From Anaeromyces robustus (taxonomy: Eukaryota > Neocallimastigomycota > Neocallimastigomycetes > Neocallimastigales > Neocallimastigaceae): a stretch of DNA of 30,000 nt. Each line of letters opens with the position of its first letter. Position 1 is the stretch's first letter. Below are positions 7,040 to 10,000 of the stretch, piece by piece. The notes under the pieces are model-generated. The model ran no database searches, was not told the DNA's origin, and saw only the letters and a program-made list of their open reading frames with translations. Position numbers and translations under genes: made by a program. The stretch spans positions 55,001 to 85,000 of the forward strand of contig MCFG01000154.1 of the NCBI GenBank assembly GCA_002104895.1, read 5' to 3'.

Positions 7040-10000
7040 TTATGAATTTTTAAAAGAATTTGTACCTGTATCATTTTCATTCATATTATATAATGACAGA
7101 GCAGTATACATTTTTCGAATAGTAGGAGGCAATCTTGATTTTTTTTGAAGTTCATATACTTTGGAAATGAAATCAATAGATTTCTGTATTTCTTGGTCAT
7201 TATTATTGCCATGGTTATCATTTCTTTCATATTTATTATTGTTCATTTCTATATTATTATTATCATTTTTAGTATTGTTATTATGGATATTCTTGTTATT
7301 GTTGTTATTAATCCTACTATATTCATTATAATAAATATTAATATCGTAATTGCTACTATCATCATCATCATAATTATTATTATTATTATTATTATTATTA
7401 TTATAATTATTTGATAATATTTGGTCATCATTATTATTAAATGTAGAAGCTACAGCCTTTCGATAGTTTTTATTTTTATTAATATTTTTACGTGGATCAT
7501 TTTGATTTAAATTATATGAAATATTATTATCATAATTTAAAATATAATTATCTTCATTCATTGTTTCACTTAATATAAATTTATTTCTTTTTTTAACTTG
7601 ATTTTTATTAGTTATATTTTTATTTGTCATATCTAAGTAGAGTTTCTCCTTAACTGAATCTTCATATTCTTCTTTGTTGACTTTATTTAAAACTTTACTA
7701 TTTATAGGAGGGTATCTAGATTGATTATCAAATCTTTGTTCATTTAATATATTTATATTTCTAATCTCAGTAGAATTATATCTTGTATGTTTAGTACTTT
7801 GTGCAGATTGCGGTCTTCGAATATTATATAATTCCTCATTAACATTAACAATTTCATTTTTTAAATATTCTTATATATTCATTTATTTTTATTAATATTA
7901 TATTTATAATATATTTTATTTATTTTCATTTATTAATTATTATTTATATTTATTAATTATTTTTCAAATTATTAATTTATATACTTATAATACTTACTTG
8001 GATTTGTATTTTGTTCTGTAATTTTCTTTTTTAATAAACTGTTTTCTTTAATTAAATTATTAATAATTTCCAAATAATTATCTTTTGTCATATCATTATC
8101 ATTTGAAATAGTTCTCATAATTTCACTTGAATTATTTGAATTAATATCATATTCATTATGCTTCATTGTAAGAAAAAAGAATTAAGAAATAATAATCATT
8201 AAAAAGAATAAAAAATAACAAAAAAAAAAAATTTTAATAATATTGATAATAATAATAAAAAAAAGGATATTTTTCTATATCTCTATGTAATTTATTTTCA
8301 TTTATAGATAAAGGATTATTATGGTAACTCATCATAGATTTAGAATATTTAGGTTTTGAATCTTTATATAATGTTCTATAAATCTTTGATTTTGCTGTTT
8401 CATTTTTTAAAGATTTGTTTAATTTTTTTTTAACATTTTTCAATTCTGTACTTTTTAGTTGTGATTTATCATTATTATTATTATTAATATTATCTGCAGT
8501 AGTAGTAGTACCAATAATATTATAACTCTTATCATTAATAGAATTAGTAGTATTGATTATATTATTATTATTAGTAGTAGTAGTAGTACCAATAATATTA
8601 TAATTCTTATCATTAATAGATTTAGTAGTATTGTTTATATTATTATTATTGTTATTATTATTATTACTGTTGTTGTTGTTATTATTGTTACCATTATCAC
8701 TATTACTAATATTTATATTATCATTATTATACTTAATATTTTTATTTAATGATTTATTTGATGATATTTCATTATTATGTTTTAATATGATTGATTCATG
8801 TACTTCATTATTATCCTCTTTTGATGAAAGTAAATTAAACTCATTAAATGTCAAACATTCATTATTTAATAAATCTTGTATACTATTAAATATATCATTA
8901 TTAAAATCATTTTCTGTAACAACTTCTTCATCTGTATATCTTTTTAGTTTTTCAGATAATTTTAATACTAAATTTGTTTTTTGCTTTAATTCATTAATTA
9001 ATTGTACAATATTTAAATTTTTATAATAATTAATCTTTTTCTTCATATTTATCACTTTTTTCCTATCAGATTGTACACTTAATTGACTTTTATATTCTTC
9101 AATCATTTTGTTTAACTTTATAATTATATTATATATAATATGATAATTTTATATATATAAATATTCATTAGATAATATATTAATAGAAAAAAAGATATAT
9201 TAATATATTTATATTATAAAGAAAATTTGTGTTAATAATTATTTTATATACTTAAAGTTTTAAAATAAAAAAAAAATTAAAGAAAATTATTCTCATTTTT
9301 TAATATATTTTGTTTTTTAATTACCTCTGTTATTTTATTTTTTAATTTTTCATTTTCTATATTTTTATAAATCAATTCCTAAATTTGTCAACATTTAATT
9401 AGAAAATATATATATTAAATAAAAAAAATTTTTTTAAAAAAAAAAAATTAACAAAATAAATTAATTACTCTTCTAGCTTTTCTTAATTCATCATTTAATG
9501 AATCATCTCTTAACTTAAAATCATAATAATTCTTCCATAAAGTTGTTTCCTTTTTTTTATACGAGTCTTTTAAATTTCGTTTCTAAATAATTATTGTAAT
9601 AATAAACATTTATTTAAATATAATTTTAAAAAAAAAAAAAAAAAAAACAATTTCATGATTATAATAGGTAGTATATTATACCTCCATTTTACACTGAGTT
9701 TTTATTTTATTTATCAATAAAATATAAAAAGCTCTCATTTTGGTATTCTATAATTATTAATATATAAAATAATATAATTTTAATATATTATCATTGAATT
9801 TATTTTGTTTTATTATAATACTATTTTTATTATAATTACATATAATTTATGAATTAAGATAAAATAACATAATAAAATTTTTTAAAACCTACCATATATT
9901 TTAATTCATTAATTTCATCTTTATAATTATTTATAATTTCATCATTTATTAATATTTTTTTTGAAACTTCAATTAAATTTTCTGGCATCATTTCAGACTT

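Follow-up and report, generated by a model that had tools for sequence, protein, structure and literature searches.

Does a large gene of the anaerobic fungus Anaeromyces robustus contain an intron that starts with AT and ends with AC, and does the fungus have a working minor spliceosome? The gene lies on the minus strand of the 30,000-nt stretch of DNA analysed here (the window), at positions 7040–21075. Our rough model of it, which spans 21075 to 7043, has 42 exons and is without at least one, and the number 45 that an earlier note on this DNA had given to the exon before the intron was not reproduced. The N-terminus of the predicted protein is weakly DUF4549-like (18.5 bits, under the Pfam cut-off of 27), and the C-terminal part gave no Pfam family match. 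The upstream exon (8271–9115, minus strand) has an asparagine-rich middle and ends in NNPLSINENKLHRDIEK, the downstream exon (7998–8167, minus strand) encodes MKHNEYDINS...KKKITEQNTNP, with a GTAAGT donor after it at 7997, and the last exon occupies 7043–7869 on the same strand; all three exons were placed by the model together with an alignment to the homologous protein P0003. Long TTTA-type tandem repeats, in which frames read (YLFI)n, occupy 14700–15000 and 21600–21850. Elsewhere in the window, two minus-strand frames presumably encode, judging by eye, a relative of the splicing factor SDE2 (29479–29865) and a makorin-like protein with CCCH/RING-like features (22546–23184).

A probable U12-type AT-AC intron in the large gene

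The candidate intron is 103 nt long (8168–8270, minus strand), lies in phase 2 and was recognised from its sequence elements and from the join in an orthologue. On the minus strand the order is GATATAGAAAA/ATATCCTTTTTTT...TTATTATTTCTTAATTCTTTTTTCTTAC/AATGAAGCAT (slashes mark the exon boundaries here and below), and the intron itself reads ATATCCTTT...TTTCTTAATTC...AC. Its 5' splice site, ATATCCTTT (8262–8270; extended form ATATCCTTTTTTT from 8270), agrees with the RTATCCTT required of U12-type introns. The TTCCTTRAY-like branch site is represented by TTTCTTAATTC (8179–8189), the second A of which (8182) is the putative branch adenosine, 14 nt from the intron end; branch sites of U12-type introns usually lie roughly 10–20 nt before the 3' end. 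The 3' splice site is the AC at 8168–8169, and removal of 8270 to 8168 restores the reading frame. The elements lie where the earlier note had placed them, with the spacing and phase that it gave; the 5' site agrees with the consensus, and the branch site has one non-consensus base. Its statement that the upstream exon lacks any GT donor went too far, since GTs occur at 8451, 8434 and 8328 (scan of 8480–8271), none of the three in a good donor context.

In computed pairings with the U12 snRNA of the same genome, UUUCUUAAUU reached -3.6 kcal/mol and UUCCUUAAC -6.5 kcal/mol. Alone, ATATCCTTT is unremarkable (two occurrences in the window versus 1.40 expected from shuffles); the whole arrangement of 5' site, branch site and AC, searched with a pattern composed after the site had been seen, occurs once versus 0.01 expected, with a match in one of 100 shuffles. 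A second AT-AC intron in the same gene (18367–18488, minus strand; ATATCCTTTTTTT...AACAC) would give NENDYD/FSINIKNKEE, a gap-free join against a predicted Piromyces finnis protein. It is less certain because its branch site is weak, its partner protein is itself a prediction and the annotated A. robustus protein P0001 joins differently there too.

A homologous protein crosses the join without a gap

A protein search with the host gene returned two proteins, P0001, which is near-identical to our model in the exons common to both and so points to A. robustus, or something very close to it, as the source of the window, and P0002 (P. finnis, marked partial), and a C-terminal query added P0003 (96% coverage, 59% identity) and P0004 (Piromyces sp. 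E2). Two of the four homologues, P0001 and P0003, reach the intron site; P0002 and P0004 stop before it. P0003 has 899 aa and its contigs are no longer than 2836 nt, whereas the matching stretch of the window contains nine introns in the model. P0003 should accordingly be spliced or intron-free, and we have taken it to derive from a transcript, although its source is silent on the point. In the alignment, NNPLSINEDKLQKDIEK/MKRNEY of P0003 meets NNPLSINENKLHRDIEK/MKHNEY of the host gene, and over a longer stretch SYHNNPLSINEDKLQKDIEKMKRNEY matches SYHNNPLSINENKLHRDIEK/MKHNEY, in both cases without a gap. When cuts around the site were tried irrespective of their end bases, the join peptide arose only from 8270/8168 (AT-AC) or from its one-base slide 8269/8167 (TA-CA). 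We regard this gap-free orthologue as decisive support for the predicted AT-AC intron, and it bears out the position proposed in the earlier note.

The same alignment decides against two other ways of reading the locus. The public model, with coordinates deduced from P0001, has a GT-AG intron from about 8803 to 8161 and treats the sequence between as non-exon; P0001 accordingly reads KEDNNE/HNEYDINS. This model omits 180 residues of our rough model, including ETAKSKIYRTLY...SYHNNPLSINENKLHRDIEK, which are well conserved in P0003, and both its donor (GTACAT) and its acceptor (ATGAAG) are poor, so that we consider it extremely unlikely to be correct. An in-frame stop near 8234, inside the intron, and an ATG at 8166, immediately 3' of it, would fit two separate genes, the first ending at the stop and the second beginning at the ATG, but both parts lie within the single protein P0003 and join there without loss or gain, which leaves this arrangement a practically negligible probability. 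Both models were rejected on the P0003 alignment.

The intron could also be real and be removed by the major (U2) spliceosome. Humans have major AT-AC introns, according to excerpts of PMC8280824, and the weak pairing of the A. robustus U6atac with the 5' site (see below) would fit such a route. The 5' site is, however, the U12 consensus rather than the ATAAG type of major sites, and it recurs genome-wide in combination with an AC end and a canonical branch site of the U12 type; removal by the major spliceosome therefore seems to us very unlikely. Weighing against the U12-type reading are the different cut in P0001, the non-consensus branch base, the U11 snRNA that was not found, the poor pairing of U6atac with ATATCCTTT and the roughly half of 46 genome matches expected by chance. 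Taken together, 8270 to 8168 is almost certainly a genuine U12-type AT-AC intron of this large gene, as judged from sequence comparison.

Components of a minor spliceosome in the genome

Rfam searches of the genome placed U12 (57.4 bits, cut-off 53), whose GUAAGGA for branch pairing is unchanged, and U6atac (RF00619, 61.5 bits over the full model, cut-off 33) above their cut-offs and a U4atac candidate below (40.4 bits, cut-off 53). The candidate contains CGUCCUUAUCAAGG, the exact 14-nt complement of the U6atac of the genome. For U11 neither E<=0.001 nor E<=10 gave an Rfam match in the genome, in searches whose controls were uninformative, and the Rfam search of the window gave no match. The snRNA search proposed in the earlier note thus succeeded for U12 and U6atac, gave a sub-threshold U4atac candidate and found no U11.

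Both proteins looked for from its list, SNRNP35 (U11-35K) and RNPC3, were found. The SNRNP35 exon differs from a U1-70K-like copy (GWKPRRLGGGLGNTRLGG), both names being our assumption from comparison with human sequences. The best PDB matches of the RNPC3 candidate were RBM40 (1e-21), RBM41 (1e-14) and U1A (3.5e-4), and what we take, from a comparison with the human protein by eye, to be a second typical RNPC3 exon lies nearby. CENATAC is represented by two matches to PF14968 (cut-off 25.3 bits), one of 66.4 bits, which runs through five stop codons that we have taken for introns, and one of 29.3 bits. No candidate in the genome turned up for the short zinc finger of U11-48K (PF05253).

Several components are therefore present, contrary to the complete absence that the earlier note had named as evidence against its reading. 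Its proposal of a working minor spliceosome in A. robustus is supported by the predicted U12, U6atac, candidate U4atac, SNRNP35, RNPC3 and CENATAC together with further AT-AC introns in conserved genes (see below). We infer that the parts found remove 8270 to 8168 in A. robustus itself: ATATCCTTT and the branch site would be recognised by U11/U12, removal would be catalysed by U4atac/U6atac with U5, and the exons would be joined in phase 2 to give DIEK/MKHNEY.

Further AT-AC introns across the genome

The pattern TATCCTT...TTCCTTRAY had 46 matches in the genome versus 21 in the reversed control, so that about half of them are expected by chance. Of the matches, 44 were distinct when compared over their first 60 bases; TATCCTT was preceded by A in 33 of them, by T in 10 and by G in one, compared with A 25, T 33, C 8 and G 5 at 71 background sites (p ~9e-8, a value that takes in a few repeat copies). 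Minor introns with canonical branch sites thus look to start almost all with AT in A. robustus.

Seven A-type matches flanked on either side by open frames could be joined, each at an AC. Pfam families align across the join for Exo84 (3.8e-14), formin FH2 (3.2e-9), ATG9 (6e-21) and TTL (5.1e-10), and a CDK piece aligns across it to solved CDKs (best 2.6e-11, PDB), so that five further predicted AT-AC introns have protein-family or structure support. In an MRD1-like piece the RRM_1 match ends before the join, the CDK and L009 pieces matched no Pfam family, and the TTL piece had no PDB match. The distance from branch motif to AC was 7 to 35 nt in the seven joined examples; for ATG9 and TTL, where an alternative AC nearby is possible, the AC was chosen by homology. 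In L009, L021, L022 and L027 it was 22–35 nt, long for U12 introns, and in all four no earlier AC or AG lies between the motif and the AC that is used. L035, which is presumably XPG-like (by eye), and L014 are coding up to the 5' site and showed no downstream join in the stretch examined. Most of the remaining matches are without clear coding support.

A divergent U6atac

The U6atac locus (C1:239650-239797, minus strand; L002 1501-1648) ends in a T-run and is preceded, at a distance of 33 nt, by the TATA-like TATATAAA. With its 61.5 bits over the full model, these elements and the 14-bp pairing with U4atac it resembles the U6atac of RF00619. It differs in the 5'-splice-site box, which reads GCCGAGAGA instead of the Rfam consensus AAGGAGAGA, and in UUGGCAC, which replaces UUAGCAC, so that GGC stands in place of the AGC triad. 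U6atac pairs with the 5' site, according to excerpts of PMC8199999. With RNAduplex, three AUAUCCUUU sites and GUAUCCUUU gave -1.4 to -3.0 kcal/mol with the A. robustus U6atac, versus -5.7 to -10.2 kcal/mol with the 5' part of human U6atac, and AUAUCGGCU gave -9.7 kcal/mol with the A. robustus RNA. By computed pairing, U6atac would not form the helix expected with the 5' splice site, and most of the complementarity to ATATCCTT looks to have been lost in the one U6atac locus found. The computed fold of nt 1–34 is a GCCGA/UUGGC hairpin (-6.8 kcal/mol).

The searches did not support a canonical second copy. CCCCTTGANAAGGA, allowing at most one mismatch, had nine genome matches versus seven in the reversed control; among the nine, only the C1 locus has a U6atac context, and the match on C72 is U4atac read backwards. 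In the sequence sets viral_contigs and genome_contigs a U6atac-like pattern revealed no U6atac, its one match (L075) not being a U6atac, and a U12-like pattern had no match in viral_contigs. A set of introns that had switched to a 5' site fitting the altered box was rejected, as TATCGGY...TTCCTTRAY had six matches versus 11 in the reversed control.

Either this is a working U6atac whose 5'-site helix has largely been lost, or the assembly lacks a canonical copy. We tentatively suggest, as a possible rather than a probable explanation, that the minor spliceosome runs with the U6atac box GCCGA (for AAGGA) unpaired to CCUU, U11 and proteins holding the 5' site. This reading rests on the locus being the only U6atac-like one found, on its looking live, on the 14-base match to U4atac and on the lack of enrichment of TATCGGY introns. 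The altered box could instead fold onto the neighbouring GGC. Excerpts of PMC8280824 describe CENATAC and AT-AN introns. In humans CENATAC favours AT-AC introns; in A. robustus it may perhaps help to hold the 5' site in place of the standard U6atac helix.

Comparison with known minor introns

In ATATCCTTT, the TTCCTTRAY-like branch site, the AC end, and the minor snRNAs and proteins, A. robustus resembles the animals, plants and early fungi with U12-type AT-AC introns; the motif-to-AC distance of 7–35 nt sets its examples apart. Excerpts of the 2023 survey by Larue and Roy (PMC10639083) report minor introns together with minor snRNAs in the Neocallimastigomycetes, the class to which A. robustus belongs, namely in P. 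finnis and Neocallimastix californiae, and excerpts of PMC2846911 mention minor snRNAs of Chytridiomycota. Minor introns of this class were thus already on record, and 8270 to 8168 adds one more predicted intron of that group. The survey covers annotated introns, whereas the A. robustus annotation is without this one; the main text of PMC10639083 does not name Anaeromyces, and a divergent U6atac is absent from the excerpts.

Two features look unusual, the mismatched U6atac and the near-exclusive AT start of introns with canonical branch sites. No title among the literature matches listed concerned a divergent U6atac in anaerobic fungi. The count of 33 A against one G, from 44 matches of which chance would account for about half, contrasts with the mixed human set, in which 24% of minor introns are AT-AC and 69% GT-AG (excerpts of PMC8280824); a precedent for AT-AC enrichment is Blastocystis, with 77% (excerpts of PMC10639083).

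For an anaerobic fungus the locus provides an AT-AC intron with good support, and it illustrates that annotation can miss such introns, the public model losing 180 residues of the host protein, as counted in the rough model, at window positions 8161–8803. The apparently near-pure AT-AC set among the introns found is a natural setting for the study of A-type minor splicing, and should the odd U6atac prove to be the working copy, the basic assumption that pairing between U6atac and the 5' site is required would become testable.
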